Shown piece by piece: positions 4,140 through 37,561 of a DNA stretch of 37,617 bases. The stretch covers positions 1 through 37,617 of the forward strand of contig JABITU010000122.1 of the NCBI GenBank assembly GCA_018668195.1, read 5' to 3'. The translations under genes and the position numbers were made by a program. Under the pieces are notes generated by a model. That model was not told the DNA's origin. It ran no database searches and saw nothing but the letters and a program-made list of their open reading frames with translations. Each line of letters opens with the position of its first letter. Position 1 is the stretch's first letter. Source of the DNA: Tateyamaria sp. Its GTDB lineage: Bacteria; Pseudomonadota; Alphaproteobacteria; Rhodobacterales; Rhodobacteraceae.

Positions 4140-4239
4140 ATTTTATGAAATTCCTGAAACATTGGGCATCTGCTTACGCATTGAAATTTTGCACTTAAAG
4201 CAGCGTTATGTGGTTTAAGTTTTTCGCATAGTGCTCTGG
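4140..4239 (+). repeat. Dispersed 100-bp repeat, copy C
   Basis: This unit lies 50 bases after the fadH stop. Its first 48 bases (4140-4187) align without gaps to the core of the unit at 37444-37491 (reverse strand) with 36 of 48 identical by hand count. The remaining 52 bases keep the GCAGCGTTA block and the terminal TTTTTCGCATA block at the same spacing as the other copies. It is the most divergent complete copy together with A2. It has no open reading frame of note. Confidence 0.75.
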
Positions 4240-4471
4240 TGATGGTAATTATACCGTGCGACTGAAAGCCTGCGCGATGCACCTTGAGGTCATGTTACAG
4301 GCTTTTAACATCTGATCTGCAAGGCTAAAAACCACAACACAGATCCTGCATTATCGCTGCTATACCGCGAATTATCCCTCCTAATTTCCATATGTTATCA
4401 CAACCTTGCCCTGATCTTGCCCTTATTATCCACGACGCTGCACCTTGCAACGGAAGCCGAAAGGGACAGGC
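4240..4471. other. Non-coding spacer before LysR gene
   Basis: About 230 AT-rich bases between the repeat copy and the LysR start. The only structure noticed is an inverted repeat AAAGCCTG/CAGGCTTT around 4265-4308. No confident promoter or gene was recognised here. Confidence 0.5.
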
Positions 4472-5377
4472 ATGGACCGCCTTACAGAAATGGAAGCCTT
4501 TGCCAACGTTATAGATCAGGGTGGGTTTACAGATGCCGCAAAGCACATGGGGATTTCAAAATCAGCTGTCTCAAAATACGTTTCATCGCTTGAGGCCCGT
4601 TTAGGCGCGCGTCTTTTGAACCGAACAACCCGTCGGGTCTCACCAACCGAAATTGGCCTCGCCTATTATGATCGCGCCCGTCGTGTTTTGAACGATGCAG
4701 GTGAAGCCGATGCGCTGATCACATCCATGCAATCAGAACCTTCGGGCTTGCTGCGCATCTCAGTCGCAACAGATTTCGGCGCTAATCATCTGTCGCCATG
4801 CCTATCCAAGTTTCTTGAGGATTTTCCAGAGATCAACGTAAACATGGTTTTCGAAAATCGCTATGTTGAGCTGGTCGCGGAGGGGTTTGACGTAGCTGTG
4901 CGCATTGGCCAATTAGAAACCAGCCCTCTACACGCCCGTAAACTGACCGAAACTTCCATGCGCATGATCGCCAGTCCAATATATTTTAAAAAGTACGGTC
5001 GCCCAAAGAAAATTGATGACCTTAACGCGCACAAGCTACTGCATTATTCAAACCAACCATCAGGCAACATGTGGAAGCTGACCGCGCCATCCGGTGAGAA
5101 GCGCCAAGTGCGCACTCCTGGTTGGCTCAGTATTAATGACGGGCAATCGCTGCTCAAGGCCACAGTCGCGGGGCTCGGCATAGCATACCTTCCGTCGTTT
5201 CTTTACTCTGAAGCCATGGAAAAAGGATTGGTGCAGGATGCTATTCCAGATTTGCCGGGCGAGACACAAGGCATTTATGCGATGTATCCGCCAGGTCGAT
5301 TTACCCAACCAAAGGTCCGTGCATTCGTTGACTTTTTGACTCATACATTTGCCCACAAAGGTCCAATGAAGTGGTGA
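4472..5377 (+). CDS. LysR-family transcriptional regulator
   Basis: A 301-residue LysR regulator. Start ATG 4472 is chosen because MDRLTEMEAFANVIDQGGF is the standard LTTR N-terminus and an AAGGGA ribosome-binding sequence lies just upstream. An in-frame TTG at 4445 would add 9 atypical residues. The winged helix-turn-helix spans roughly residues 1-60 (FTDAAKHMGISKSAVSKYV, then LEARLGARLLNRTTRRVS). The effector-binding domain begins near residue 90 (LLRISVATDFG) and is of the CrgA/AaeR-like subgroup judged by FGxNHLSPxLxxF. It follows fadH on the same strand, but with 381 bases and a repeat between them, so control of fadH is only a guess. The effector is unknown. Confidence 0.9.
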   Translation: MDRLTEMEAFANVIDQGGFTDAAKHMGISKSAVSKYVSSLEARLGARLLNRTTRRVSPTEIGLAYYDRARRVLNDAGEADALITSMQSEPSGLLRISVATDFGANHLSPCLSKFLEDFPEINVNMVFENRYVELVAEGFDVAVRIGQLETSPLHARKLTETSMRMIASPIYFKKYGRPKKIDDLNAHKLLHYSNQPSGNMWKLTAPSGEKRQVRTPGWLSINDGQSLLKATVAGLGIAYLPSFLYSEAMEKGLVQDAIPDLPGETQGIYAMYPPGRFTQPKVRAFVDFLTHTFAHKGPMKW

Positions 5378-5409
5378 GATGAGCTTTGCTACATTTCACT
5401 TCAGTGATC

Positions 5410-5433
5410 GCCCCGATACGTAAACATTGGGGC
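5410..5433. terminator. Hairpin between convergent LysR and OmpA-domain genes
   Basis: GCCCCGAT (5410-5417) pairs with ATTGGGGC (5426-5433), one G-T wobble, 8-base loop. It lies in the 70-base gap between two convergent stops. No long T-run follows, so terminator function is tentative. Confidence 0.4.
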
Positions 5434-5447
5434 ATTTCGCGTTCATG

Positions 5448-6383
5448 TTAGCCTTCTTCGTTGACTATGATCACCTCAACCCGGCGGTTTACGGTGCGAC
5501 CGGCTTCGGTTCGGTTAGATGCCCGTGGCGCAAGATATCCCATACCCTGCGCATCTACGCGGGCCGGATCCACCGCATGTTGTTCAATCAACCGCAACCG
5601 GACAGACTGGGCACGTTCTTGGGACACTGCTATGTTTGCTTCCAACCCGCCAGAGGTGTCGGTATGCCCAACGATTGCCAGCTTCAACTTTGGTCGCTCA
5701 GACAGCAAATCCGCCAGTGCGGCCAGTTCAGGTGCCGGCGCGTCCGACAGGCTGGTTGTTCCGACTGCGAAATTGATGCCTGACAAAACGTAATGCCCAT
5801 GCGCAGCCAACTGGCTCGCTATCCCACCAAGGGGAGTCTCAGGCGCAATCTCTTGGGGCGTGGCGGAAATCAATTCCAAGCTTTTGGTCAACACCCCCGC
5901 ATGCATGATCTGAATATAACTCGCACTGTCGGCGGCGCTTACCAAAAGGGTGATCGCTGACTGCCCCCGAGGGTCGAGGGCAGTCAGGAAACGAAACGCC
6001 CGGATGTTGACATACATATTGGGCGCGGGCAGCACTTCGATGTTGAAGCGAAAATCGTAGCCGCCGCAACTGATCTGGTTGCAATCAAGCAGAATTTCAT
6101 AGCCCGCGGCATCGATCTGATCGCGCAGTGGTGACAACATCTGAAGTGTCGTTAGTCCGGGTACATTAATGCGGTAAGCCCGGCGCGTGACCCTCCCTTC
6201 AAACTGAAGGTCCTCTAGTGCGCCGTCTTTGAAAGGACTAACTGGAATACTGACCTCATCGAATACGCTGTCACGCGCTGCGGTCTGTTTCGCGTTGTAG
6301 GGCAGATTCAGATCCAGCGCGTAGGAAGGCAGCGCCAAAATCCACAGCGCCAGACCAAAACCGCATAAACTGCCAGCCCTCAT
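5448..6383 (-). CDS. OmpA-domain envelope protein
   Basis: A 311-residue secreted protein with a signal peptide at about 1-22 (hydrophobic LALWILALPSYA, cleavage likely after YA). The middle (about 30-180) has no family I recognise. The C-terminal OmpA/MotB peptidoglycan-binding domain is at about 200-308: the NFAVGTTSL strand, GHTDTSG with Asp242, SQERAQSV with Arg257 (the pair that holds diaminopimelate), and the closing NRTEAGRTVNRRVEV. Lack of an N-terminal eight-strand barrel means it is probably a periplasmic or outer-membrane-attached peptidoglycan anchor, not a porin. Two cysteines (about 101 and 106) could form a disulfide. It is the last gene of an operon with cinA-like, GNAT and AhpD-like genes, its ATG 2 bases after the preceding stop. 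Confidence 0.88.
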   Translation of the reverse strand: MRAGSLCGFGLALWILALPSYALDLNLPYNAKQTAARDSVFDEVSIPVSPFKDGALEDLQFEGRVTRRAYRINVPGLTTLQMLSPLRDQIDAAGYEILLDCNQISCGGYDFRFNIEVLPAPNMYVNIRAFRFLTALDPRGQSAITLLVSAADSASYIQIMHAGVLTKSLELISATPQEIAPETPLGGIASQLAAHGHYVLSGINFAVGTTSLSDAPAPELAALADLLSERPKLKLAIVGHTDTSGGLEANIAVSQERAQSVRLRLIEQHAVDPARVDAQGMGYLAPRASNRTEAGRTVNRRVEVIIVNEEG

Positions 6384-6385
6384 TT

Positions 6386-6952
6386 TCAGCGTGCCTGACC
6401 ATGATATTCTTCGTTGGGCTGCATCGCAGTGGCGCTGGCCACCCGGTTCGTCATGTTAAAGAACGCGGCAACGTTTATGACATCCCAAATGTCACGGTCA
6501 GTCAATCCATGCTCCCGTAGGGTCTGCCGATCAGTCTCTTCGATGGTATAGGACGCTTGCGTAATCTTTTCTGCAAGGGCCAGCATCGATCGCTGGCGCG
6601 GTGTCACATCTGCCACGCGCCAATTCATCACCAACTGCTCGCCAAGGATGGGATTTCCCGACAGCTGCCGTACCGCCGCACCATGGGCGGTCAAACAATA
6701 GAAACAACGGTTGGTCGCACTGACGACCACGGCAATCATCTCGCGCTCGAGCTTACTAAGTTCACTTTCAGCAAGCATCAGATCGTTATAAAGTGCAGTG
6801 AACGCATCCAGCTTGGCAATATCAAAGGCATGCGCCTGTAACACATTCGGGATCATACCCAACTTGTTCTGGCAAATATCAAAATATTTCTGCGTTTGAT
6901 CGGGCAAGGGATCAACCATAGGCAGATCGAGGGCGGTTGGCTGGTCTGTCAT
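6386..6952 (-). CDS. AhpD-like / peroxidase-related protein (carboxymuconolactone decarboxylase fold)
   Basis: A 188-residue cytoplasmic protein of the AhpD/CMD superfamily. The redox site is visible as CFYCLTAH, with Cys83, Cys86 and His90, preceded by the conserved LEREMIAVVVSAT helix. Members with this CxxC-xxx-H site act as alkyl-hydroperoxide or disulfide reductants. The family-typical N-terminus LPMVDPLPDQTQKYFD and the NMTNRVAxAxxMQPNEEYH ending fit the 'uncharacterised peroxidase-related enzyme' subgroup. The start at 6952 is preferred over an upstream in-frame start at 6988 because it gives a 4-nt ATGA overlap with the preceding GNAT gene and the family N-terminus. The physiological substrate is unknown. 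Confidence 0.87.
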   Translation of the reverse strand: MTDQPTALDLPMVDPLPDQTQKYFDICQNKLGMIPNVLQAHAFDIAKLDAFTALYNDLMLAESELSKLEREMIAVVVSATNRCFYCLTAHGAAVRQLSGNPILGEQLVMNWRVADVTPRQRSMLALAEKITQASYTIEETDRQTLREHGLTDRDIWDVINVAAFFNMTNRVASATAMQPNEEYHGQAR

Positions 6953-7671
6953 GTGCTCTCCGGTTTTTGACGGTAGTGATAGCCGCAACGTTTGCGAAAA
7001 CCCAACCGTTGGTACAGCATATTAGCAGCCGTGTTTGCGTGGGTACACAGCACTGCGATATGATCGGCGTCGTTTTGCGCGGCCCAATGCCCAGCAGCCC
7101 GCATGATCCAATTCGCCACACCTTGCCTGCGTTGATGTTGCAACACCTCAACCGCGTGAACCATGGCAATACCATCGTGGATCGCCACAAAGGCAGTGCC
7201 CGCTGGCTTTTCGTTCCATCGCGCCAAAATTGCAGTCTTTTTGTTGGCCCGGTGCATCACATCGAGCCGACTTTTGCCGATTTCACCCTTGGCCCAAATG
7301 TCTGTCATGATCGCTAACGGCTCCCAAATGGCAAAGGCCGTTACGGGTGGGATAGGCTGGTCCGTCAGCAGGCCGGTATCTGCAAGATAGACATTCACAG
7401 GGTCGACGACATTATAACCCTGATTCGCCAAAATACTGTCCAGCGCTGCGTCAGCACCGCGAACCATGAACAAAGGCGTTTGACCCAGTGCACGCATCGC
7501 GTTTTCTGCAGCAGCTATATCGCCTGCGCCTGGTGCATCCGTCGCCGTTGCAGCACTTACACGCTTTCCACCGCCCTGCCCCTCGCGCAGTATCCATGGC
7601 CCATGCGAATGCATTTTGACCGCAGGCCACGTGCCATCAACCGCTGCATAAACAGACGCAGGTGTGATCAT
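6949..7671 (-). CDS. GNAT family N-acetyltransferase
   Basis: A 240-residue protein whose C-terminal half is a clear GNAT domain: AMVHAVEVLQHQRRQGVANWIM carries the acetyl-CoA loop RRQGVA (about residues 175-196), followed by AVLCTHANTAANMLYQRLGF (about 210-229), the typical strand-helix end. The N-terminal half (about 1-110) is less conserved and probably a second, degenerate GNAT-like unit. Both ends overlap its neighbours by 4 nt (CinA-like upstream, AhpD-like downstream), which points to one transcript and coupled translation. The acceptor is unknown; the context gives no clear clue beyond a mixed housekeeping operon. Confidence 0.85.
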   Translation of the reverse strand: MITPASVYAAVDGTWPAVKMHSHGPWILREGQGGGKRVSAATATDAPGAGDIAAAENAMRALGQTPLFMVRGADAALDSILANQGYNVVDPVNVYLADTGLLTDQPIPPVTAFAIWEPLAIMTDIWAKGEIGKSRLDVMHRANKKTAILARWNEKPAGTAFVAIHDGIAMVHAVEVLQHQRRQGVANWIMRAAGHWAAQNDADHIAVLCTHANTAANMLYQRLGFRKRCGYHYRQKPEST

Positions 7672-8390
7672 GCCGGAAATTCTGCGTTCAAAGCCGAAAT
7701 CGCTCGTGCCACCTCTGCGGTATCAGTTCCTCTTACAACGATATTGGCACCATAGCGCCCGTCTTTTTGAAAGGGATATGACCCAAAGCTTAGTTTGGGG
7801 AAGAGGGCGGCTAGGTTACCAAGTGGGCCCGCAATGTCGCCTTCGCCTCGCTCGACCCGCAGCGTGCTTGACACCAGTGGTGCCCCACCTGTGAGCGACG
7901 GCAAGATACTGGCCACCATTGCGCGAAACACAGATGGCACCCCGGCCATCACGTGAACATTGCCAAGGGTGAAACCCGGCGCCGACGAAACGGGATTGTC
8001 GATCAGGCTGGCACCATCCGGGATACGAGCCATTCGTAATCGCGCCGCGTTCAGCTCAACACCCGAACGCGCATAGTGGTCGGCCAGAATCGCACGCGCA
8101 TCATCGCGCACATCGATAGACACGCCAAACGCCTCGGCGATGCAATCAGCCGTGATGTCGTCATGCGTCGGCCCGATACCACCTGATGTAAATACGTTGT
8201 CATAGGCAGCAGACAAAGCCTGCACTGTCGCAACAATTGCAGCTGGATCATCGCTGACCACGCGTGCCTCGCGCAGATCAATGCCATGCTCTGTCAATTG
8301 ACCCGCGAGATAATGCATGTTTGCATCGCGTGTACGCCCGGAAAGGATCTCATCTCCGATGACAAGTATCGCAGCAGTTGGGTTTGGCAT
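7668..8390 (-). CDS. CinA-like molybdopterin-binding (MoCF) domain protein
   Basis: A 240-residue protein of the competence/damage-inducible protein A family, holding the MoaB/Mog-type domain but not the C-terminal nicotinamide-nucleotide amidohydrolase part of full-length CinA. Seen: AILVIGDEILSGRTRDAN at residues 7-24 and the TSGGIGPTHDDIT loop at 68-80 that binds the pterin or nucleotide phosphate in this fold. Start ATG 8390 is chosen because AAGGAG sits 9 nt upstream; an upstream in-frame start at 8450 would overlap sfsA and adds unconserved residues. It diverges from sfsA (48-base gap) and heads an operon of four overlapping genes. Proposed roles include ADP-ribose pyrophosphatase activity in nucleotide recycling; the role here is inferred. 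Confidence 0.88.
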   Translation of the reverse strand: MPNPTAAILVIGDEILSGRTRDANMHYLAGQLTEHGIDLREARVVSDDPAAIVATVQALSAAYDNVFTSGGIGPTHDDITADCIAEAFGVSIDVRDDARAILADHYARSGVELNAARLRMARIPDGASLIDNPVSSAPGFTLGNVHVMAGVPSVFRAMVASILPSLTGGAPLVSSTLRVERGEGDIAGPLGNLAALFPKLSFGSYPFQKDGRYGANIVVRGTDTAEVARAISALNAEFPA

Positions 8391-8438
8391 TCTCGGATCT
8401 CCTTGAGCAACGCTGTGCATCGGTATAGGCCGGGGTCC

Positions 8439-9143
8439 ATGCGCTTTCAAACTGAACTTGTCCCCGCCACATTAATCCAACGCTACAAAAGGTTTCTTGC
8501 CGATTGCCGATTGGATGATGGGCGTGAAATAACGGCCCATTGTGCGAACCCGGGTTCGATGATGGGACTGGCTGAGCCGGGGACGCGCATCTGGCTGGAA
8601 CCCAATGACGATCCCAGAAAAAAGCTGAAATTTGGATGGCGTTTATTAGAACATGCCAACGGTCGCTATACCGGGGTCGACACGTCAGTGCCAAACAAGG
8701 TCGTGCGCGCCGCTCTGATCGAACAAAAAATCGCGCTCATGTCGGCATATTCCCAAGTGCGTCCCGAACAGAAATATGGCGCAAACAGCCGTATCGATTT
8801 CCTGCTGAGTGGTGAGGGTCTGCCCGATGCTTATGTCGAGGTAAAATCAGTGACCCTATCACGTCAGAACGGGCTGGCCGAGTTCCCTGACGGCGTTACA
8901 GCGCGCGGCGCCAAGCATCTGGACGAACTTGCTACCATCGCACGAGCGGGGCAGCGGGCGGTGATGCTTTACCTTGTGCAGCGCACCGATTGTACAAGAT
9001 TCACTTTAGCAAATGACATCGATTACACCTATGCTGTTGCTTGTGAACGCGCTTTGCTGGCCGGGGTAGAAATGCTGTGCCTTGGCACCCATATCAGCCC
9101 GGAAGAGATTACAATCAGTGGTGCTATACCTGTGGTGGTGTGA
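8439..9143 (+). CDS. sfsA: SfsA family protein (sugar fermentation stimulation homologue)
   Basis: A 234-residue protein matching SfsA over its whole length. Visible signatures are the N-terminal OB-like part with RFLADCRL and AHCANPGSMMGL (about 20-45), and the nuclease-like core with RIDFLL (about 115) and YVEVKSVTL (about 130), where Asp, Glu and Lys resemble a PD-(D/E)xK active site. RGAKHLDEL (about 155) is also typical. The ATG at 8439 is chosen because MRFQTELVPATLIQRYKRF is the conserved start; longer in-frame starts run back through the CinA-like gene. Family knowledge: E. coli SfsA affects maltose metabolism and binds DNA, but its molecular function is not settled. It is followed by map after 51 bases, an arrangement common in Rhodobacterales. 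Confidence 0.93.
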   Translation: MRFQTELVPATLIQRYKRFLADCRLDDGREITAHCANPGSMMGLAEPGTRIWLEPNDDPRKKLKFGWRLLEHANGRYTGVDTSVPNKVVRAALIEQKIALMSAYSQVRPEQKYGANSRIDFLLSGEGLPDAYVEVKSVTLSRQNGLAEFPDGVTARGAKHLDELATIARAGQRAVMLYLVQRTDCTRFTLANDIDYTYAVACERALLAGVEMLCLGTHISPEEITISGAIPVVV

Positions 9144-10019: not shown

Positions 10020-10025
10020 TTCTAT

Positions 10026-18454: not shown

Positions 18455-19216
18455 TTGTCTATTTTTTTTCCCCTATGGCGCGTCATGTTTGCTGCATTTA
18501 TGGTTATTTCGCTGACCGCATGCACTTACAACAACAGCACAGGACAAGTCGGTGAAGGTGTTTACGACCCATACGAAGAAACAAATCGCAATGTCCACGA
18601 ATTCAACCGTAGCCTAGATCGCACCATCGTGCGCCCAGCCGGTGTTGGCGTAACGACGATCCTACCCGATGAAGTCGAAGATTCAGTCGGAAACTTTGCC
18701 AACAATCTTGGACAGCCGAAAGTCATGGTGAATTCGTTGCTTCAGGGCGACTTTCGCGGCGCTGGCGTTTCTACGGTGCGGTTCTTGACCAATTCGACAC
18801 TGGGAATTTTTGGGCTTTTTGACGTTGCATCCGATTTTCAGGTGCCTCAGCATGACGCAGATTTTGGCCAAACCTTATATGTCTGGGGCGTACAGGAGGG
18901 TGCTTATATCGAAGTTCCCGTGCTTGGCCCTTCCACACAACGTGATCTGACAGGCACCGTTGTAGATCTATTTTTGAACCCGTTAAGCCATTATACTGAC
19001 AGCCCAGAAAAGTATTATGATCCCGCGGCGTCGGTGACCTCCAGTCTCAGCGCACGAGGTCGATACACAGACACAATCGATTCAATTCTCTATGAAAGCG
19101 CCGACAGTTATGCACAGGCGCGCCTGATTTATTTGCAGAACCGCAGGTTTGAATTGGGGGACAACGACTCTGAAGTAGAGATTGACCCATTTGCCTTGGA
19201 TACGGAGGGTTTCTAA
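18455..19216 (+). CDS. mlaA: MlaA (VacJ) family outer-membrane lipoprotein
   Basis: A 253-residue lipoprotein that, with an outer-membrane porin, removes phospholipids from the outer leaflet and hands them to MlaC. The signal peptide ends in a lipobox SLTAC with Cys23 as the acylated residue. The family block runs from DPYEETNRNVHEFNRSLDR (about 38-56) through NNLGQPKVMVNSLLQGD, STLGIFGLFDVAS, DFGQTLYVWGV and PVLGPSTQRDLTG. Start is TTG 18455 with GGAG 7-8 nt upstream; the next in-frame ATG (18485) would leave a signal peptide without a charged start. The stop overlaps the mlaC start by one base (TAATG). The gene diverges from the type I secretion operon. Confidence 0.93.
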   Translation: MSIFFPLWRVMFAAFMVISLTACTYNNSTGQVGEGVYDPYEETNRNVHEFNRSLDRTIVRPAGVGVTTILPDEVEDSVGNFANNLGQPKVMVNSLLQGDFRGAGVSTVRFLTNSTLGIFGLFDVASDFQVPQHDADFGQTLYVWGVQEGAYIEVPVLGPSTQRDLTGTVVDLFLNPLSHYTDSPEKYYDPAASVTSSLSARGRYTDTIDSILYESADSYAQARLIYLQNRRFELGDNDSEVEIDPFALDTEGF

Positions 19217-19806
19217 TGCTTGATCGTCGTTTTTTTATTGCTGGCCTTGGCAGCACACTGATTGTGCCAGCCATGCCAAGCTTTGCTATGACGCAGGGTG
19301 GGGCATCCAAACTGGTCAACTCTCTGGTCAATGACATCAATGGCGTCATTGCTTCAGGTAAAAGTGAGACCACAATGTATCAAGAATTTGAGCGCATCTT
19401 TGAGCGCTACAGCGATACATCCTATATTTCGGCATATGCTATGGGTGTGGACGGGCGACGTGCAACATCGACACAAAAACGTGCGTTTTCCAATGCGTTT
19501 CATACATACATTGCGCGCAAGTATGGAAAGCGTTTCCAGGAGTTTATCGGCGGTCGTTTAGAGGTAAAAAAGGTTCAACGCGTCAAGACTTGGTACGAGG
19601 TTTCAACGATCGCTTATTTGCGCAATGAATCCCCCTTTGAGGTCACGTTCCAAGTATCCGACCGAGCTGGAAAGAACCTGTTCTTCAACATGTTCATCGA
19701 AGGTGTGAATCTCCTTTTAACCGAACGAACAGAAATTGGGGCGTTGATTGACCGCAATGGCGGTAACATTGATGCTATGATTTCTGATCTGCGCAAGACG
19801 CGCTAA
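19216..19806 (+). CDS. mlaC: MlaC family periplasmic phospholipid-binding protein
   Basis: A 196-residue exported protein of the MlaC/Tol-Pal-associated Ttg2D family that shuttles phospholipid between MlaA and the inner-membrane MlaFEDB transporter. The N-terminus MLDRRFFIAGLGSTLIVPAM followed by PSFA looks like a twin-arginine-type signal (DRRFFIAG) cleaved near residue 24. The core shows FERIFERYSDTSYISAYAMG (about 58-77), AFSNAFHTYIARKYGKRFQEF (about 95-115) and a basic VKKVQRVK region. The mlaFED genes are not in the window, as is common when mlaA-mlaC are set apart. One-base overlap with mlaA implies coupled translation. Confidence 0.9.
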   Translation: MLDRRFFIAGLGSTLIVPAMPSFAMTQGGASKLVNSLVNDINGVIASGKSETTMYQEFERIFERYSDTSYISAYAMGVDGRRATSTQKRAFSNAFHTYIARKYGKRFQEFIGGRLEVKKVQRVKTWYEVSTIAYLRNESPFEVTFQVSDRAGKNLFFNMFIEGVNLLLTERTEIGALIDRNGGNIDAMISDLRKTR

Positions 19807-20071: not shown

Positions 20072-20074
20072 ATG

Positions 20075-20404
20075 ATGTCAAAATACTTGGTTCGAGCAAC
20101 TTATAATGGCAGCGGCTTTAGAGGCATGGTTGCCAATCCATCTGACCGAAGTGAAGCAATCAAGCAAATGACAGCCGCGCTTGGTATCAAGACCGAATCC
20201 GTTTATTTTTCTCCGTCTACTGGCGAAGCCATAATGATCGTAGATTCAGACGCCGACAAAAATGCGCGGTTGATGATGGTTGTTATGTCGTCTGATACTT
20301 TCAGCAGTGGTTCCACAATAGAACTGATCGATACAGACGATATGCGATCAGCGATGCAGGACGCGGGCGCATTGCTTGGAACATACAAACCAACAAATGC
20401 CTGA
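20075..20404 (+). CDS. GYD-domain protein
   Basis: A 109-residue protein with the ferredoxin-like dimeric alpha/beta fold of the GYD family: an opening strand KYLVRATYNGSGFRGMV, the NPSDRSEAIKQMTAALGIK helix, then VYFSPSTGEAIMIVD and a late VMSSDTFSSGSTIELIDT strand-turn-strand. Function of the family is not established. Two ATG codons stand side by side (20072 and 20075). TAGGAGG at 20061-20067 gives a 7-nt spacing to the second, so that one is preferred. No signal peptide. It appears to be a single-gene unit, flanked by AT-rich DNA before it and by tandem repeats after it. Confidence 0.85.
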   Translation: MSKYLVRATYNGSGFRGMVANPSDRSEAIKQMTAALGIKTESVYFSPSTGEAIMIVDSDADKNARLMMVVMSSDTFSSGSTIELIDTDDMRSAMQDAGALLGTYKPTNA

Positions 20405-20459
20405 CTTGGTTTCACTCAGGCGCATTTCATGCGAACGATGGGACCACGCAGGTTACAGC

Positions 20460-20559
20460 GTTTGAAATTAGGCCTGATACATCACGCCTCACCTATCGCG
20501 TTGACATCTTTGACGGCGTTCAGCGTTGGGTGGGGCTGGTCTTTCGCAAAACGCTTTAT
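20460..20559 (+). repeat. Dispersed 100-bp repeat, copy A2 (tandem, first unit)
   Basis: The first 48 bases (20460-20507) align without gaps to the core of the copy at 37444-37491 (reverse strand), 36 of 48 identical by hand count. The last part keeps TTCAGCGTT and the terminal CTTTCGCAAAACGCTTTA at the expected spacing. A three-base AGG separates it from copy A1, giving a 103-bp tandem period. Confidence 0.75.
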
Positions 20560-20562
20560 AGG

Positions 20563-20662
20563 GTTTGACGAAATACCTGAAACGTCGCACATCATCTAAC
20601 GCGGTGAAATATTTGATTTCAGGCAGCCTTAGGTGATCCAATTTTTTCGCATAACGCTTTAA
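20563..20662 (+). repeat. Dispersed 100-bp repeat, copy A1 (tandem, second unit, overlaps PBP stop)
   Basis: Core 20563-20610 is identical at 45 of 48 positions to the reverse strand of 37444-37491. The rest includes GGCAGCCTTAGGTGAT and the terminal TTTTTTCGCATAACGCTTTA. The last bases include TTA 20659-20661, which is the TAA stop of the penicillin-binding protein gene on the minus strand. Confidence 0.88.
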
Positions 20663-22800
20663 CGGTCTCTGACACCGAGAATATCGCGCAAGAGATTCTC
20701 GAGAAAGCCATCCGACTCACGCGGCGCATTTGGAACCGACAGCGCATCAGCTTGAGACGCGGGGGCCTCATCTGGTGCGCGCATCGGCAACGGTTTAGGC
20801 GGCACACCCTCGTGAACGCGCACCATGGTTTCACGCCAAATTTCAGCGGGTAATCCACCACCTGTCACACCCGACAATGGCGTGTTATTGTCATAGCCCA
20901 TCCAGACGCCGGCAACGTAATCCGCAGTGAAACCGATAAACCAAGCATCGCGTGCGGCTTGCGTTGTTCCCGTTTTCCCAGCGATCTGCCAGCCTCCGAA
21001 TTGGGCGCGTTGACCAGTACCTTCGGACACGACCTTTTCCATCATCCAGACCAGTTGTGCGGCTGCGTCATCCTGAATCACCCGTTCACCAATACCACCA
21101 CCGGCCCCCATCAGAGGCGTGTCTTCGCCTTGCATGCGCAATTCGACCAGCCCGTAAGGTGTGACAGATGATCCCCCATTCAGGATACCAGCATAGGCGC
21201 CAGTCATTTCGAGCAAATTGCTTTCCGACGCACCAAGGGCAAGCGCGGGTCCATCAGCAAGGTCACTTTCGATACCGAACTGACTGGCCACTTGCCTAAC
21301 CAAATCTCGGCTCACTGCTTCTGATACTTTGATGGCCGGGATGTTCAACGAATCCTTCAACGCTTCGGTAAGGGTCACTTGCCCAGCATAGGTGTTCGTA
21401 TAGTTGCTTGGGCACCATTCGCCCGACCCTGGAATCGTTAGGCAATAGGGTGCATCCTCGACTGTATCATTAGGCGAATACCCAAGATCAAGAGCGGCAG
21501 CATAGACAAAGGGCTTAAACGCCGACCCGGTTTGACGCTTGGCTTGAACTGCACGGTTAAACACGCCAGCAACCTGATTTTCCCGACCACCCGCCATTGC
21601 ACGAACCGCACCATCAGCCCCCATAACGACAATCGCGGCCTCTGCCTTTGATCCCTTGCGGACCTTGGTTTCAAATACACTTGCAAGCGCGTCGTCAGCG
21701 GCAAGTTGCAGTCGCTGATCTAGCGTAGTGCTAATGATCACGTCTTCGGTCGTGTTTCGAGTAAAGAACTCGGGGCCTGACGCCATCACCCAATCAGCGA
21801 AATACCCACCCGCGTTGCGCTGCGCTGCAGGCGACAACACAGCCGGAGCGGTCTGCCAACGTGCAACTTCAGATTTCGTCAGATAACCCTGTTCGCCCAT
21901 AAGCCGCAGCACGGTTGCGGCTCTATCCTGTGACCGCTGAAGATTGGCTGTGGGCGCAAGCGCAGACGGTGCTGTCAAAAGACCTGCAAGCATGGCAGCC
22001 TCAGCAGGCGTAGCAAGGGCCGCAGACTTACCAAAATACCGTTGCGTGGCGGCCTCGGCCCCATAAGCGCCGCCGCCCATGTACGCGCGGTTTAGGTAGA
22101 TCGAAAGGATCTCATCCTTGGAGTATTTCGCCTCCATCGCGAGGGCAAAGATTGCCTCCTTGGCTTTGCGTTGCAACGAACCGCGTCGGCAATCCGACAC
22201 ATAGGCCGCTTCGGTTTTCCAGACCTTCGGATCGTATTCGACACCCAGACACAAAAGCTTGGCGGTCTGCTGGGTTATGGTCGACCCACCATGCCCCTGA
22301 AGTGGGCCGCGGCCCTCTTGAAGATTGATGCGCACGGCAGATGCAATGCCGCGTGGGCTAAGGCCAAAGTGCTGGTAAAACCGCTTATCTTCGGTGGCTA
22401 CCACTGCATCGCGCAAGGCGGGTGCAACCGTGGCTGCAGTAACTGCACCACCAAACTGATCTCCACGCCATGCGAATGTGACACCATCCCGATCCTGAAG
22501 CGTGACTGAACCACGTGCGCGCCCATCCAGCAGAACATTCACATCCGGCAGTGTCGTCCACACATACCCAACGGCCAAAGCCAAAACCACGAAACAGAGC
22601 GTCCCGACACGCCATATCAGCCCCCAAATCAGACGCATGAACCAACGCAAAAGGCGCGATAGGATGTTTCTGCGCTTCTTGGGCTTGCGCTTTGACTTGC
22701 GCCGTACGGGCGCGGGTTTCTTCGCAGCGGCGACCGATTTTCGTTTTGGATAACGACGGTCGGCCACAAGGGGCTTTTTGCCTCTTTTTGAATCACTCAT
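20659..22800 (-). CDS. Bifunctional class A penicillin-binding protein (transglycosylase/transpeptidase)
   Basis: A 713-residue PBP1-type enzyme that polymerises and cross-links peptidoglycan at the periplasmic face. It starts with a very basic cytosolic stretch (about 1-48, rich in Lys/Arg), then one membrane helix at about 60-84. The glycosyltransferase domain has catalytic Glu137 in ATEDKRFYQHFG, GGSTITQQ (171-178) and a KDEILSIYLNRAYMG block. The transpeptidase has Ser426 in TGSAFK, SLN at 483-485 and KTGT at 607-610, all intact. ATG 22800 is preferred because MSDSKRGKKPLVADRRYP resembles homologues; a GTG at 22860 could add 20 residues. The TAA stop lies in a dispersed repeat, so the C-terminal tail may have been reshaped by its insertion. 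Confidence 0.93.
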   Translation of the reverse strand: MSDSKRGKKPLVADRRYPKRKSVAAAKKPAPVRRKSKRKPKKRRNILSRLLRWFMRLIWGLIWRVGTLCFVVLALAVGYVWTTLPDVNVLLDGRARGSVTLQDRDGVTFAWRGDQFGGAVTAATVAPALRDAVVATEDKRFYQHFGLSPRGIASAVRINLQEGRGPLQGHGGSTITQQTAKLLCLGVEYDPKVWKTEAAYVSDCRRGSLQRKAKEAIFALAMEAKYSKDEILSIYLNRAYMGGGAYGAEAATQRYFGKSAALATPAEAAMLAGLLTAPSALAPTANLQRSQDRAATVLRLMGEQGYLTKSEVARWQTAPAVLSPAAQRNAGGYFADWVMASGPEFFTRNTTEDVIISTTLDQRLQLAADDALASVFETKVRKGSKAEAAIVVMGADGAVRAMAGGRENQVAGVFNRAVQAKRQTGSAFKPFVYAAALDLGYSPNDTVEDAPYCLTIPGSGEWCPSNYTNTYAGQVTLTEALKDSLNIPAIKVSEAVSRDLVRQVASQFGIESDLADGPALALGASESNLLEMTGAYAGILNGGSSVTPYGLVELRMQGEDTPLMGAGGGIGERVIQDDAAAQLVWMMEKVVSEGTGQRAQFGGWQIAGKTGTTQAARDAWFIGFTADYVAGVWMGYDNNTPLSGVTGGGLPAEIWRETMVRVHEGVPPKPLPMRAPDEAPASQADALSVPNAPRESDGFLENLLRDILGVRDR

Positions 22801-23395
<595 letters not shown>

Positions 23396-23421: not shown

Positions 23422-24732
23422 ATGAAAATCACGAAATCTTTCCTCGTTGGCGCGGCTCTGACCGCTTTGCCAACGTTGGCGCTGGCCGAAGACGCCGCCC
23501 CGGGCTTTGACGAAATCGGCCCCTACATCATGACCACCCTGCTGTTCTGCATGGCTGGATTCCTGGTCTTTTTCATGGCAGCGGGTTTTGCCATGCTCGA
23601 AGGTGGGCTTGTGCGTTCCAAGAACGTCACGATGCAAATGACAAAGAACATTGCACTATTTTCAATAGCAGCAATCATGTACTGGCTGGTTGGCTTCAAC
23701 ACGATGTACCCTGGCGATTTCAACGGATATTTCGCAATTGGCGGCCAAACTGTTCTAGACGCCGTGGGCGTGTCAGCAGCTGATGCAGCACTGGATTATG
23801 CATCGGTCGGGTCTGATTTCTTTTTCCAGTTGGTGTTCGTCGCAGCGACCGCATCCATCGTTTCAGGTGCTGTTGCTGAGCGTATTAAGCTCTGGCCTTT
23901 TTTGATCTTCGTTATCGTCCTGACTGGTTTCATGTATCCAATTTCGGGTTCGTGGAAATGGGGCGGCGGCTGGCTTGACGCGGCGGGCTTTCAGGATTTT
24001 GCTGGCTCGACTGTAGTGCACTCTGTCGGTGGCTGGGCTGCTTTGGCTGGTGTCATCGTCCTTGGCCCGCGCCTTGGCAAATACAAAGACGGCAGAGTGA
24101 ACCCAATGCCAGGCTCAAACCTTGCGCTTGCCACGTTGGGCACGTTCATCCTGTGGCTGGGTTGGTTTGGCTTTAACGGTGGTTCGCAACTGGCCATGGG
24201 CACAGTGGGCGACGTATCAGACGTAAGCCGCATCTTCGCAAACACCAACATGGCCGCGGCCGCCGGTGCAGTGACGGCTTTGGTCCTAAGCCAACTTCTT
24301 TATAAAAAGCCTGACCTCACGATGGTGCTGAACGGTGCTTTGGCGGGCCTCGTTTCGATCACAGCCGAGCCTTTGGCACCTACCCTGTTTGGTGCTCTTT
24401 GGATCGGTGCCGTCGGTGGTGTAATCGTTGTTCTGACAGTTCCATTGTTGGACAAACTCAAGCTTGACGACGTTGTCGGTGCAATTCCGGTTCACCTGTT
24501 TGCCGGTATCTGGGGTACACTTGCCGTAATCTTCTATAACTCTGACGCGACACTAGGTGGGCAGTTGATGGGTATCATCGCCTACGGTGTGTTTACCTTT
24601 GTTGCATCGCTGGTCGTTTGGTTCATTCTCAAGGCTGCTATGGGCATCCGCGTGGGTGAAGAAGAAGAAATCGTTGGCCTCGACATGTCAGAACTGGGCA
24701 TGGAAGCCTATCCAGACTTTACTAAAGGCTGA
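23422..24732 (+). CDS. amtB: Ammonium transporter
   Basis: A 436-residue Amt/Rh channel that moves ammonium into the cell as a trimer. It has a cleavable signal peptide (about 1-22, ending ALA) followed by eleven membrane segments. The twin pore histidines are His200 (STVVHSVGG) and His358 (AIPVHLFAG). The Amt signature around DFAGSTVVHSVGGWAALAG (192-210) and the MLEGGLVRSKN loop (58-68) are intact, as are the Phe gate residues upstream. The C-terminal tail GEEEEIVGLDMSELGMEAYP is the GlnK-contacting tail. It forms a two-gene operon with glnK and ends in a strong terminator. Confidence 0.96.
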   Translation: MKITKSFLVGAALTALPTLALAEDAAPGFDEIGPYIMTTLLFCMAGFLVFFMAAGFAMLEGGLVRSKNVTMQMTKNIALFSIAAIMYWLVGFNTMYPGDFNGYFAIGGQTVLDAVGVSAADAALDYASVGSDFFFQLVFVAATASIVSGAVAERIKLWPFLIFVIVLTGFMYPISGSWKWGGGWLDAAGFQDFAGSTVVHSVGGWAALAGVIVLGPRLGKYKDGRVNPMPGSNLALATLGTFILWLGWFGFNGGSQLAMGTVGDVSDVSRIFANTNMAAAAGAVTALVLSQLLYKKPDLTMVLNGALAGLVSITAEPLAPTLFGALWIGAVGGVIVVLTVPLLDKLKLDDVVGAIPVHLFAGIWGTLAVIFYNSDATLGGQLMGIIAYGVFTFVASLVVWFILKAAMGIRVGEEEEIVGLDMSELGMEAYPDFTKG

Positions 24733-32473: not shown

Positions 32474-32617
32474 TTTGTGCGTAACAATTAATCAATTGCC
32501 TCTGGAATTGCCTAACGGACATGCAATCGTGTGCATGCGCAGATCCATAGGCGCAAAAATGATTGGATTAGTTGGTCTCTTTCCGGCTTCTTCTGTGCAA
32601 CTACTCAAGGAATACTC

Positions 32618-33601: not shown

Positions 33602-33637
33602 CACAAATCGCTGCTTAACACAGAGAGGACATCTGAC

Positions 33638-34912
33638 ATGACGACCATATCAAAGATCCGCTACAGCCGCCGTGCGCTGCTGAAAACTGGGGGCGCCGCG
33701 CTAGCTGCTTCCACGTTGCCCGCTCCAATGGTCTGGGGACAGGAAACCAAGAATATTACTCTGCGCCAGTTCGGCACCGGCGTGTCAAACCTGAATGAAG
33801 TGGCAACCAAGGTAAAAGAAGACCTGGGTATCACGCTTGAGATGACCGCGCTGGATACCGACAGTGTGACACAACGCGCGGCCACACAGCCAGACAGCTT
33901 TGATATTGCTGACATCGAATATTTTGTGGCCAAAAAGGTCTGGCCCACAGGCAACCTGCAAGCGATGGATGCGAACAAAATTACTAATTACGACAAGATC
34001 GTTGGCACCTTCCGCAGCGGCAAGCTGACACCGGAAAGCACGATTGCGCAGGGTACAGCGCCGCACACAGTGGGCTTTGTAGAAGGCCCTGATGGGACGT
34101 CTTTCGTGGACAACGAAAGCGGATGGATGACGTTGATCCCGACGATCTACAACGCTGATACACTTGGCATTCGCCCAGACCTGATTGACCGCCCAATCGA
34201 AAGCTGGACCGAGTTGCTAAATCCAGAATTCAAGGGCAAAGCATCGATCCTTGATATTTCGTCAATTGGTATCATGGACATGGCAATGGTCTGCGAAGCC
34301 ATGGGCGAGATCCAGTACGGCGACAAAGGAAACATGACTCGCGAAGAGATTGATAAGACATTTGCAATCTTTACCGAAGCCAAGAAGAACGGCCAGTTCC
34401 GTGCCTTCTGGAAAACCTTTGACGAGAGCGTCAACCTGATGGCCAGCGGCGAGGTCGTGATCCAGTCAATGTGGTCGCCTGCCATCACCGCAGTACGGTC
34501 GCGCGGCATCCCATGTGTCTACCAGCCGCTCAAAGAAGGCTATCGCAGCTGGGGTGGTGGTATCGGTCTTTCAGCATCACTGTCTGGCATGGAACTGGAT
34601 GCGGCATATGAGTACATCAACTGGTACCTGTCCGGTTGGGTCGGCGGCTTCCTGATGCGTCAGGGTTACTATTCAGCCGTACCGGAAACCTCCAAGAACT
34701 TCATGTCCGCGAATGAGTGGGGATATTGGTTCGAAGGCAAACAGAGCACGGGCGATATCACATCGCCGTTCGGTGACAAGCTTGCCGGTGCCGGAGAGGT
34801 GCGCGACGGCGGATCCTTCTATGACCGGATGGGCGCAGTTGCATGCTGGAACTCTGTCATGCAGGAAAACCAGTACATGGTCCGAAAGTGGAACGAATTC
34901 ATCGCCGCTTGA
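33638..34912 (+). CDS. ABC transporter substrate-binding protein with Tat signal (polyamine/PotD type)
   Basis: A 424-residue periplasmic binding protein. The N-terminus SRRALLKTGGAALAASTLP is a twin-arginine signal (Arg11-Arg12), so it is exported folded, with cleavage likely near VWGQE. The mature part has the type II binding fold: TLRQFGTGVSN, IADIEYFVAKKVWP, TLIPTIYNADTLG (the hinge and ligand-facing region), ESWTELLNPEFKGKASILD and SGEVVIQSMWSPAITAVRSRG. It resembles PotD/PotF homologues loosely. Start ATG 33638 has GAGAGGA about 8 nt upstream. A strong intercistronic hairpin follows its stop, as expected where a binding protein is needed in excess. Ligand unknown. Confidence 0.92.
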   Translation: MTTISKIRYSRRALLKTGGAALAASTLPAPMVWGQETKNITLRQFGTGVSNLNEVATKVKEDLGITLEMTALDTDSVTQRAATQPDSFDIADIEYFVAKKVWPTGNLQAMDANKITNYDKIVGTFRSGKLTPESTIAQGTAPHTVGFVEGPDGTSFVDNESGWMTLIPTIYNADTLGIRPDLIDRPIESWTELLNPEFKGKASILDISSIGIMDMAMVCEAMGEIQYGDKGNMTREEIDKTFAIFTEAKKNGQFRAFWKTFDESVNLMASGEVVIQSMWSPAITAVRSRGIPCVYQPLKEGYRSWGGGIGLSASLSGMELDAAYEYINWYLSGWVGGFLMRQGYYSAVPETSKNFMSANEWGYWFEGKQSTGDITSPFGDKLAGAGEVRDGGSFYDRMGAVACWNSVMQENQYMVRKWNEFIAA

Positions 34913-34920
34913 TCCAATAA

Positions 34921-34945
34921 GCGCAGGGGCACCTTGCCCCTGCGC
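34921..34945 (+). terminator. Intercistronic hairpin after the binding-protein gene (attenuator or mRNA stabiliser)
   Basis: GCGCAGGGGCA (34921-34931) pairs perfectly with TGCCCCTGCGC (34935-34945) around a 3-base loop. It has no T-run and stands between the binding-protein stop and the permease start, where such hairpins commonly protect the upstream message or thin out downstream transcription. Confidence 0.75.
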
Positions 34946-34968
34946 ACACTCCGCACAGTGGAAACCGA

Positions 34969-35817
34969 ATGAACAAACGCATAACCGCATGGCTGCAAGC
35001 CGCCCCGATAGCGGCTGTATTACTGGCCTTTCTGGTAGCACCGATCATAATGATCGTTATCGTCAGCTTTTGGGGGGCGACCGAATACTCCATCTATCCC
35101 GCGTTCATTTTCGACAATTATGAATTCCTGTTCAGCTCTCCGGTTACTTACACGGTATTTTTCAATACATTCAAATACGCCGCCATAACTTGGGCTTTAA
35201 CATTAGTCATCGGCTTTACCGTTGCATATTTTCTTGCTTTCGAGGTACGCACACTGAAATGGCAAATCGCCCTTTTTCTTTTGTGCACCATACCATTTTG
35301 GACCTCAAACATCATCCGCATGATTTCGTGGATTCCATTCCTTGGCCGTAACGGCCTTGCCAATTCGACGTTGATCTCTTGGGGTGTGATTGACGAGCCG
35401 CTTGAATGGCTGCTTTTTAGCGACTTTAGCGTCATTCTGGCATTCGTGCACCTCTACACTCTGTTCATGGTTGTACCGATCTTCAATTCAATGATGCGGA
35501 TCGACCGGTCATTGATCGAGGCGGCGCGCGACGGCGGCGCCTCTGGCCTGCAAACGCTGCGCCACGTGATCATCCCGCTGTGCAAGCCCGGCATCATGAT
35601 CGGCACAATATTCGTTACTACGCTGGTTATGGGCGATTTCATCACCGTGCGCTTTATGTCCGGCAGTCAGCGCGCCAATGTCGGACGGCTGATCTCCAAT
35701 GACATCAGCCTGCTACAGTACCCCTCTGCCTCGGCAACAGCGGTGGTTTTGCTGATAACAGTTCTGATTGTGATCGGGCTTTTACTTCGACTTGTCGACA
35801 TCCGAAAGGAGCTTTGA
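34969..35817 (+). CDS. ABC transporter permease (PotB type)
   Basis: A 282-residue inner-membrane permease with about six membrane segments, the first at 13-34. The EAA loop that docks on the ATPase is at 181-208: SLIEAARDGGASGLQTLRH, then VIIPLCKPG. The phrase IPFWTSNIIRMISWIPFLGRNGLAN (109-132) is typical of PotB/PotH. It follows the hairpin by 24 bases. Its start ATG 34969 has only a weak ribosome-binding sequence (GTGGA), consistent with lower permease output than the binding protein. Its stop is 1 base from the next ATG. Confidence 0.92.
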   Translation: MNKRITAWLQAAPIAAVLLAFLVAPIIMIVIVSFWGATEYSIYPAFIFDNYEFLFSSPVTYTVFFNTFKYAAITWALTLVIGFTVAYFLAFEVRTLKWQIALFLLCTIPFWTSNIIRMISWIPFLGRNGLANSTLISWGVIDEPLEWLLFSDFSVILAFVHLYTLFMVVPIFNSMMRIDRSLIEAARDGGASGLQTLRHVIIPLCKPGIMIGTIFVTTLVMGDFITVRFMSGSQRANVGRLISNDISLLQYPSASATAVVLLITVLIVIGLLLRLVDIRKEL

Positions 35818-35818
35818 G

Positions 35819-36655
35819 ATGGAAAGACGCAGCCGCAGTTTCTATGCCCTTGCCGCATTTTTCGGTCTGTTCGCTCTGTTCCTTTATGGGCCTATCCTGA
35901 CTATTGGCATCCTTAGCTTCCAAGGGCCACGGGGCGGGCTAACCTTTCCTATGAACGGCGTGTCTCTGCACTGGTTCCGAGATTTGTTTCAGGAACAAGC
36001 CGTAGGCGATATCTGGGGCAGCTTCCGTCGCTCATTCGCACTTGGCCTGATGGTCATGGTCACCACAGTCGTTGTGTCAGTTCTTGGAGGTCTTGCGTTC
36101 CGCAAACGGTTCGAGGGCGCGACGGTTTTGTTTTACCTCGCAATCGCTTCTCTGGTAATCCCTTCTATACTGGTCTCGCTTGGCGTCGGCTTGATCTTTA
36201 ACCAATTGGGACTGCCAGTGCACTGGTCCAGCTCAGGCTTTGGCGGTCAACTGACATGGACATTGCCCTTTGGATTGTTGATCATGTTCGCCGTCTTTAA
36301 CCGCTTTGACAAAAGCTACGAAGAAGCTGCATACGATCAGGGCGCTACATCCTGGCAAGCATTTGCATATGTCGTTCTGCCCATCATCGCGCCATCTTTG
36401 CTAGGTGTCGCTTTGTTCGGCTTTACGCTGAGCTATGATGAATTCGCGCGCACACTATTGATCGCGGGCAGCTATAATACATTGCCGCTCGAGATTTTTG
36501 GGATGACAACGAATGTAACAACACCAGTGATATTTGCGCTCGGCACGCTTACAACGGTTTTTTCATTCTGCATCATCGGCATCTTTTTCCTAGCAGCATG
36601 GCTCATGTCGCGGCGCAAAGACAAAGGCTCTGATGCTGGCAAGGGCATGGTCTGA
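35819..36655 (+). CDS. ABC transporter permease (PotC type)
   Basis: A 278-residue permease, partner of the preceding one. A first membrane segment spans about 8-32 (FYALAAFFGLFALFLYGPIL). The EAA-type loop is at 166-194: SYEEAAYDQGATSWQAFAYV, then VLPIIAP. The DLF-x-x-W, SLVIPSILVSLGVG and FTLSYDEFARTLLI segments fit PotC/PotI. ATG 35819 has AAGGAG at 35806-35811, 7 nt upstream, inside the end of the previous gene; this rules out the earlier in-frame start at 35792. Confidence 0.92.
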   Translation: MERRSRSFYALAAFFGLFALFLYGPILTIGILSFQGPRGGLTFPMNGVSLHWFRDLFQEQAVGDIWGSFRRSFALGLMVMVTTVVVSVLGGLAFRKRFEGATVLFYLAIASLVIPSILVSLGVGLIFNQLGLPVHWSSSGFGGQLTWTLPFGLLIMFAVFNRFDKSYEEAAYDQGATSWQAFAYVVLPIIAPSLLGVALFGFTLSYDEFARTLLIAGSYNTLPLEIFGMTTNVTTPVIFALGTLTTVFSFCIIGIFFLAAWLMSRRKDKGSDAGKGMV

Positions 36656-36658
36656 ACC

Positions 36659-37309
36659 GTGACTGTTATACTTATCAATCCAAATAGCACTGATGCTATG
36701 ACGCAAAGCGCGTTGACGGCTGCCCGAACTGCAGCGCCCCGTGTCCAATTCGAAGGCTGGACATCCGTATCGGCACCAAAGTCGATCGAAGGGCCACAAG
36801 ATGGCGCACGCGCAGTGCCACCGCTGTTGGATCTGGTGCGCAAAGCATCAGATGCAGGGGCCGATGCCATCATCATAGCTTGCTTCGACGATACCGGGCT
36901 GGCCGAAGCGCAAGCAATTGCTGCCTGCCCCGTGATTGGGATTGGACAAGCCAGCTATGTCATCGCGTCCCTGTTAGCCGGCCCAACTGCCGTCATAACC
37001 ACCGTCGAAGCTGCCGTGCCGGTGATCAAGGCCAATATAAAGGCGCAGGGCCAGTCTGCGACGGTTCGGCATGTCGAAGCAGCTGACGTCCCGGTTCTAA
37101 CCCTGACCAATAGTCCAGCGGTTGCACTTGCTAAGTTCTCAGACGCGGCACAAAAGCTGCCCGCTGACACGGTGAACCTAATCTTGGGATGTTCTGGGGC
37201 GGTCTCGATCAAGCGTGATTTACAGGCAGACCTACACTTGAACGTCATCGATGGAGTGACGGCAGCCGCTCGTTTGAGCAGAGTATTCTTGACAGATGAA
37301 AGCGTTTGA
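36659..37309 (+). CDS. Asp/Glu/hydantoin racemase family protein
   Basis: A 216-residue cofactor-independent racemase. The N-terminus VILINPNSTDAMTQSAL is the hydantoin racemase (HyuE) signature. The two catalytic cysteines are Cys75 (IIIACFDDTGL) and Cys178 (LILGCSGAV), spaced as in HyuE. Start is GTG 36659, 3 bases after the permease stop, so it belongs to the transporter operon. Family members racemise 5-substituted hydantoins, allantoin or aspartate/glutamate; some are decarboxylases. Location with an uptake system and FCD regulator suggests it acts on the imported compound, but no hydantoinase or carbamoylase gene lies in the window. Confidence 0.9.
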   Translation: MTVILINPNSTDAMTQSALTAARTAAPRVQFEGWTSVSAPKSIEGPQDGARAVPPLLDLVRKASDAGADAIIIACFDDTGLAEAQAIAACPVIGIGQASYVIASLLAGPTAVITTVEAAVPVIKANIKAQGQSATVRHVEAADVPVLTLTNSPAVALAKFSDAAQKLPADTVNLILGCSGAVSIKRDLQADLHLNVIDGVTAAARLSRVFLTDESV

Positions 37310-37390
37310 CGCGGCGCTTGGCGCTTGGCCTGGCTTGTGTGGTATGCGTGTTAAACCGTTACGTTTTACGAAACTCTTTAAACAATGCAG

Positions 37391-37561
37391 CCTAAAGCGT
37401 TATACGAACAACTTGAATCAGCTAACGCTGCCTGTAATCAGAGATTTCAACGCGTTAGATGATGTGTGATGTTTCAGGTATTTCGTCAAACGCTATAATG
37501 CATTGAAATTTTTATTTCTTGCAGCGTCAGGCGGCTTAATCTTTTCGCATCACGCTTTAGG
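37391..37561. mobile_element. 171-bp palindromic element with 10-bp perfect ends, MITE-like (contains repeat B and an inverted partial unit)
   Basis: CCTAAAGCGT at 37391-37400 is the exact reverse complement of ACGCTTTAGG at 37552-37561. Inside these ends the arms stay similar for about 65 bases: the right arm (about 37497-37561, including ATTGAAAT, GCAGCG and TCTTTTCGCATCACGCTTTA) is the 3' part of another unit in plus orientation. It faces copy B head to head. No open frame, no transposase. No clear target-site duplication was seen. Confidence 0.65.
37392..37491 (-). repeat. Dispersed 100-bp repeat, copy B (reverse orientation)
   Basis: On the minus strand from 37491 to 37392 this unit aligns without gaps to A1: 45 of 48 identical in the core (37444-37491), then GGCAGCGTTAGCTGATTCAA and a terminal CGTATAACGCTTTAG. 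It begins 82 bases after the racemase stop. Confidence 0.9.

Follow-up and report, generated by a model that had tools for sequence, protein, structure and literature searches.

A 37,617-nt stretch of DNA from Tateyamaria sp. (Rhodobacteraceae; contig JABITU010000122.1), referred to in its entirety below as the window, contains five copies of a 105-bp repeat in the spacers between its genes: four units designated A, B, C, and D, and an older copy, E. With a probability of roughly 0.87, the repeat is a miniature inverted-repeat transposable element (MITE), a non-autonomous element belonging to the Tc1/mariner-like IS630 group and mobilized in trans by a transposase of IS630 type. Such an element would insert at YTAR (Y, C or T; R, A or G) with duplication of the TA, would carry ends derived from those of a roseobacter IS630 insertion sequence (IS), would fold in its interior as one long imperfect hairpin, and would persist chiefly between convergent genes, often inside a stop codon.

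Copies in the Tateyamaria contig

The four units described in an earlier note on this DNA, A to D, are all present, with a length of about 105 nt each and no gaps relative to one another. E, which extends over about 37362-37559 with D nested in it, is a fifth, and the copies occupy three spacers rather than the four intergenic places described, because B and C form a tandem overlapping by two bases, the TA at 20557-20558. Chance similarity is ruled out as an explanation of the resemblance noticed earlier, because a profile built from 29 units, all from outside the window, finds A to D with E-values of 2e-16 to 7e-29 (Table 1). R1, a covariance model trained on a set that included window units, detected D, C, A, and part of E in the window search and missed B at default filters. 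C and D are 87% identical over 112 nt, and A and D 72% over 95 nt; the terminal TA of A is eroded.

D is flanked by TA at 37393-37394 and 37496-37497. After excision of D together with one TA, E aligns to profile positions 6-104 with 31.5 bits, compared with 20.4 bits for the right flank alone, a score that does not resolve the exact join point of D and E. The long inverted repeat 37391-37438/37514-37561 (I3) arises because D faces the right part of E.

Table 1. Copies of the repeat, and a stop codon lying within one of them, in the window (profile, built without window rows; R1, covariance model)
Feature	Position	Strand	Description
Unit A	4134..4238	+	Diverged, full-length; R1 63.3 bits, 5.8e-17; profile 54.8 bits, 2.4e-16
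Unit B	20454..20558	+	Diverged, full-length; profile 57.5 bits, 3.4e-17
Unit C	20557..20661	+	Tandem to B; R1 92.1 bits; profile 88.1 bits, 1.1e-26
Unit D	37393..37497	-	Best-preserved copy, nested in E; R1 106.8 bits; profile 95.2 bits, 6.6e-29
Unit E, left part	37362..37394	+	Cut off by D; left part alone unreported by profile
Unit E, right part	37496..37559	+	Profile 22.9 bits, 1.9e-06; R1 22.5 bits for 37458-37559; inverted repeat I3
Stop codon TAA of penicillin-binding-protein gene 20659-22860 (-)	20659..20661	-	Last three bases of unit C; from sequence, open reading frame, and Pfam

The copies lie close to gene 3′ ends, as the note had it, with C supplying the stop codon listed in Table 1. 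A is flanked by two plus-strand genes, one encoding an NADH:flavin oxidoreductase-like protein (2063-4090) and the other of LysR type (4445-5377), and B is situated 3′ of a GYD-domain gene (20072-20404, +). Genes of the MlaA and MlaC types and an ammonium transporter gene (18455-19806, 23422-24732), all ordinary neighbors, are found near the tandem copies.

Distribution, target site, and IS630-like ends

Across 84,980 species genomes, a pattern scan produced 41 matches, of which 36 were judged real on visual inspection; the other five (L009, L019, L028, L031, L038) were set aside as chance matches showing no likeness outside the pattern. The real matches fall in records named Roseobacter cerasinus, Sulfitobacter, Ruegeria, Pseudophaeobacter, Litoreibacter, Paracoccaceae, and Rhodobacteraceae, and BLAST added copies on plasmids of R. 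litoralis and R. denitrificans. At E ≤ 0.01, R1 found matches in all 13 genomes or records chosen from those loci (1-71 each, opposite-strand doubles included). R. cerasinus (genome G001) has 20 distinct places at E ≤ 1e-4 (24 matches minus 4 such doubles). The distribution is patchy, with 19 of 149 genomes in an even family sample matched at E ≤ 1e-4 under stricter filters. The absence of insertions and deletions reported earlier holds for the four window units, but elsewhere copies measure 98-107 nt, and 9 of the 36 real pattern matches are shortened or broken. At 105 bp, without a transposase gene and with many dispersed copies, the repeat has the attributes of a MITE. Short forms of about 43-50 bp also occur (L042:4235-4284, L005:573-622, L032, L040, L023); most keep the terminal TA, and they look like deletions between the unit's two TAACGC copies. 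The exact end pattern had no match in viral contigs. No window match reached the gathering score in Rfam, and for three loci with good copies the sole Rfam match at E ≤ 1 lay outside the element.

At G001:C1:149699-149803 of R. cerasinus, the filled site reads GGGGCTC-TA[element]TA-GGC, and the stop codons of two convergent reading frames are the first and last three bases of the element. The orthologous site in a relative (G172) is element-free, with a single TA in GGGGCTCTAGGCC and 82% identity over the whole junction, and consists of a CTAG in which both convergent genes' frames stop. At G001:C9:3525, filled as GAC-TA[element]TA-AGCACCG, a second relative (G165) has GAGTAACACCG, containing a single TA and the left gene's stop codon, at 73% identity with a one-base gap beside the TA and gaps further right. 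One TA is thus present at both orthologous empty sites and two when they are filled—that is, a duplication of the target site—and this duplication is backed by the tandem copies (B and C, and two copies in genome G157 that likewise overlap by 2 nt) and by the nesting of D in E. At a third place, G001:C10:116202, CTAG, CTAA, or TTAG is found in six of six relatives, with a left side that does not align cleanly; here (L085, 116202-116306) both terminal TAs of the element are CA, and the right-hand gene call ends at the element in TGA, not TAA. No left-side match was present in relatives for G001:C2:198410. For the window tandem B/C, 172 of 394 genomes matched, none of them across the junction among the matches listed. 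In the flanks of G001:C2:198410 (L081) and G001:C7:190347 (L082), other short spacer stretches (query 923-1017 and 1388-1454) match several places in relatives, above all in genome G174, and probably represent a different intergenic repeat family.

The target was further characterized in 78 placed copies, drawn from the best-scoring listed places and exclusive of the four window units (G001, 17/17; G003, 21/21; G004, 21/28; G005, 4/4; G002, 4/13; G006, 5/21; G007, 2/5; G009, 2/8; G010, 2/29; none from G008, G011, or the plasmids). Of these copies, 49 retain the left TA, with Y before it in 44/49, and 56 retain the right TA, with R after it in 51/56. TA duplication within a YTAR target is of the IS630 type; elements of the IS630 group prefer CTAG.

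A candidate parent type was reached through the right end of the repeat, with which BLAST led to plasmid pow41 of Octadecabacter sp. SW4, where a like end opens a 1,054-bp IS (L189:2502-3555). Its transposase matches PF13358 and the NCBIfam IS630 transposase model NF033545 (131.8 bits, above the cut-off of 100), and its ends, TAAAGCGTCCCGCCAAAAACCTGAATCG and TAAAGCATTCCGCCTTTAACCTGAGACA, are like those of the repeat in 24 and 19 of 28 bases. This transposase lies in more than one reading frame, and the PLSDB gene table, which omits pseudogenes, has no gene there. Relatives were found in 37 of 295 genomes at 1e-30, and both ends lie 1,054-1,059 bp apart in 10 of the 31 loci examined, representing nine sequences (L189 = L191, L192-L197, L199, L200). 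End identities to the repeat are 16-24 and 17-20 of 28 for the nine IS (16-22 and 17-20 for the eight besides L189, 1,056-1,059 bp long) and 6-20 for more distant IS loci. In random 750-nt segments the mode is 12-13 of 28, with at least 16 in 194/5,000 and at least 18 in 31/5,000. The ends are therefore shared with IS630 as likeness, not identity.

With respect to the inner bases, the IS 5′ end has CTGAATCG where the right end of the repeat has CTGAATCA, and the IS 3′ end has CTGAGACA where the left end of the repeat has CTGARACA; TGAATCG is present in 7/9 of the 5′ ends and TGAGACA in 6/9 of the 3′ ends. Over all 28 bases the 5′ ends are closer to the right end of the repeat in 9/9. The comparison suggests that the right end of the repeat corresponds to the 5′ end, and the left end to the 3′ end, of such an IS, whose transposase may have mobilized the repeat.

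Several observations weigh against an origin of this kind. The 3′ ends of the IS are also closer to the right end of the repeat over 28 bases, by 1-3 bases in 9/9, and the assignment of ends is for that reason drawn entirely from the last 8 bases. Single end matches of 16-17/28 are within reach of chance, and 7 of 17 loci with at least 68% protein identity (L198, L201-L204, L209, L218) failed to yield both ends, being cut, broken, or unrecognized. PF13358 is absent at 1e-5 from 9 of 12 repeat-rich genomes; the remaining three have five matches, mostly fragments. In none of the repeat-rich genomes was an intact IS630 found. TA is present at both ends in just 44 of 82 copies, window units included. 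Finally, of eight junctions searched, two gave empty sites readable through the TA, one a YTAR lacking a clean left side, and five no more than half matches among the rows listed.

Three of the five IS630 matches, fragments in G005 and G007, keep an IS-type 3′ end, like that of L189 in 19, 19, and 22 of 28 bases and like the repeat in 17, 18, and 15. A search for a parent by its ends in the 12 repeat-bearing genomes gave no long pair in R. cerasinus, where 32 of the 33 listed ends lay at known copies. Since IS630 is mostly lacking or fragmentary in repeat-bearing genomes, the repeat looks like the orphan of a lost or broken IS. A second short palindromic element with IS630-type ends and a different interior was seen on a plasmid of Roseovarius sp. 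Pro17 (L188:2502-2616), with an amidohydrolase gene on one side and a LysR-type gene on the other. Overall, the suggestion in the earlier note that copying spread the element family has good support from the empty sites, the nesting, the TA duplication, the copy numbers, the patchiness, and the IS630-like ends.

Gene context and fold

In the sample of 78 copies, with genes called by our own script, the stop codon of a neighboring gene is at or in an element end in 43, and at both ends in 4: it occupies the left bases 1-3 in 18, the left bases 10-12 in 8, and the last three bases on the right in 21. Annotated genes of the R. litoralis plasmid pRLO149_94 provide independent confirmation at one place, where the TAG ending an acetylornithine deacetylase-like gene (L190:1502-1504) and the TTA ending panC (1597-1599) coincide with opposite ends of a single element. 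A gene was called within 400 bp to both the left and the right of 58 copies, and the two neighbors converge in 47 of these; the background is 37 convergent pairs out of 247 for 400 kb from R. cerasinus (Fisher 7e-22) and 22 out of 191 for the other fetched loci.

Special targeting of stop codons was considered and rejected. In element-free convergent gaps, 27 of 35 YTAR sites are stop codons (20/26 in 37 gaps from the 400 kb of R. cerasinus and 7/9 in 22 gaps from the other loci), and elements in convergent gaps lie at stop codons in 32/47, with no excess over this control (Fisher p = 0.46), which is small, pools different genomes, and uses the same gene calls. The coincidence with stop codons thus follows from the YTAR target, and the convergent bias reflects either tolerance or use. 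Under the MITE reading, copies would persist between convergent genes because TAA and TAG account for the majority of YTAR sites in such gaps and because the element ends re-close the reading frame, the left end with TAG or TATAGCGTTTGA and the right end, read from the right, with TAA; purifying selection would then produce the context bias. A stronger version, which we consider improbable, is that the ends are adapted to gene-dense genomes, with TAG, TGA, and TAA placed in the relevant frames so that insertion into a shared CTAG stop is silent for both proteins, and with the hairpin added as a two-way terminator, making the family a near-harmless and sometimes useful separator of convergent genes.

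The fold was examined in alignment A2, comprising 27 of the 36 real pattern matches (the 9 shortened or broken ones excluded), two plasmid units, and four window units; part of the conservation in its columns 11-30 reflects the position of the search pattern. In these 33 units the element is one long imperfect hairpin, end pairing with end: 90.9% of cells are paired, compared with 26-45% for slid versions, and the terminal inverted repeats form an outer helix (columns 1-24 with 83-107) in which 89.8% of cells are paired. Cells changed on both sides number 47, compared with 17.3 ± 4.1 in shuffles (0/500 as high). Six standard pair types occur at column pair 40-77, and pair 9-99 is UA in 17 units and CG in 14. 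By a weaker measure, 10 pairs have a double change, a value reached by 18/500 shuffles and by some slid versions (6-11). In the outer helix, recognition of both ends by a single transposase is an alternative source of covariation.

Within genomes, changes were counted in copies of exactly 105 nt (15, 15, and 9 in three genomes). Pairing is lost in 22/35 (R. cerasinus), 72/113 (G004), and 49/74 (G003) of the one-sided stem changes and is kept in 4/5, 11/19, and 3/10, respectively, of the double changes; substitutions per site in stem and loop are 0.042/0.107, 0.130/0.133, and 0.127/0.198. The picture is mixed, with no clear selection on each copy. In the window, folding z-scores against shuffles are -3.9 for B and -3.7 for D, but +1.1 for A and -0.7 for C, which fold no better than shuffles. 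The selection on length or structure suggested in the earlier note is therefore weakly supported: it gains a little from stems that covary between lineages, and loses by one-sided changes that mostly break pairs in three genomes, by the folding of A and C, and by the variable length.

These data bear on the possibility that the host keeps the element as a two-way transcription terminator or RNA-processing hairpin, convergent landings being favored rather than merely tolerated. The convergent bias, a long hairpin possible from both strands, the between-lineage covariation, stems that change more slowly than loops in two of three genomes, and the double changes that kept the pair are all in keeping with such a role. 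However, tolerance gives the same bias, as argued for the pneumococcal RUP, SPRITE, and IS elements in the relevant part of PMC3049150; the one-sided changes often break the pair, as counts for which no neutral expectation was computed; and A and C fold poorly. Moreover, a simple scan, which detects only short loops followed by T, found no terminator inside the elements of the four stretches scanned (B/C, D/E, and one each from R. cerasinus and R. litoralis), and 130 of 149 family genomes have no match under strict filters. Maintenance by the host is accordingly regarded as unlikely, and in the proposed MITE the hairpin would function in transposition, not for the host.

The inner stem, ACCTAAC...GTTAGGT, and the B-C tandem hint at an integron attC site or array. 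The attC core has the consensus RYYYAAC/GTTRRRY, which some variants of the stem fit and the commonest, the ACGTAAC type (11/33), breaks. Element boundaries lie about 25-40 nt beyond the inner stem, and the copies are mostly single, dispersed, and TA-ended. On consensus, boundaries, and dispersion, this identity was set aside as extremely improbable.

Relation to known elements and implications

The repeat falls in a known class. Correia/NEMIS, ERIC, RUP, RPE, and CIR are reviewed with TA ends and stem-loops in part of PMC2229807, and PMC3049150, in the portion available, reports RUP and others as enriched between convergent genes and BOX as supplying stop codons. The available portion of a Paracoccus transposon paper (PMC3281130) has no mention of IS630 and mentions MITEs once, in general terms.

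RUP of Streptococcus pneumoniae, the proposed MITE of IS630-Spn1, is similar in length (107 bp), IS630-like ends, terminal TA, convergent-gene enrichment, and insertion into one another, according to excerpts of PMC2229807, PMC3049150, and PMC10969869. It belongs to an unrelated host in which its IS630 is common, whereas the repeat-rich genomes considered here have at most fragments; the two were compared by description only. The Correia elements or NEMIS of Neisseria, as outlined in part of PMC2229807, are about 107 bp (or 155 bp) long, with terminal inverted repeats, terminal TA, a long stem-loop, and two length forms. They differ in host, and the roseobacter repeat has IS630 relatives with similar ends, again by a comparison of descriptions only. 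Rhodobacterales IS630 (e.g., that of Octadecabacter sp. SW4 pow41) have similar outer ends and TA flanks in an IS of 1,054-1,059 bp, whereas the repeat lacks a transposase gene and has its own short interior. BOX of S. pneumoniae also supplies stop codons to its neighbors (36 annotated genes), but is modular, and in the accessible text of PMC3049150 its stop codons are not tied to a target site.

The Caulobacter CcrM-associated intergenic repeat (CIR), found in Caulobacter and Brucella, raises a further reading in which the repeat would be kept for a GANTC methylation site. Like the repeat, CIR is alphaproteobacterial, about 110 bp long, and intergenic, and GANTC is present in 39 of 82 copies, in 37 of these at positions 70-90. 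The other 43 copies lack it, however, and the repeat is a single end-to-end hairpin, whereas the section on CIR in PMC2229807 describes two arms and a linker, conserved GANTC, and no terminal inverted repeats. Lacking both the conserved GANTC and the two-armed fold, the repeat was set apart from CIR on the descriptions, not the sequences, of the latter, and membership is very improbable.

As the earlier note had recognized no named family, so none was found in Rfam or the open-license literature; among the results listed there, there was neither a named roseobacter family nor any MITE linked to stop codons or to CTAG. We classify the repeat as a new family within a known class, with RUP, Correia/NEMIS, and CIR compared by description. 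The wider covariance-model search proposed in that note bore fruit, with many copies in related roseobacters, compensatory changes, and a convergent-gene bias.

Roseobacters are abundant marine bacteria, and in them there is now a repeat family for which the boundary is clear, the target and empty sites have been identified, and the type of parent is likely. Because a mobile element supplies a number of stop codons, gene ends in these genomes need to be re-read. Presence or absence at orthologous sites offers a ready insertion marker, and with this repeat the question of tolerance or use of hairpin elements located between convergent genes can be tested directly.

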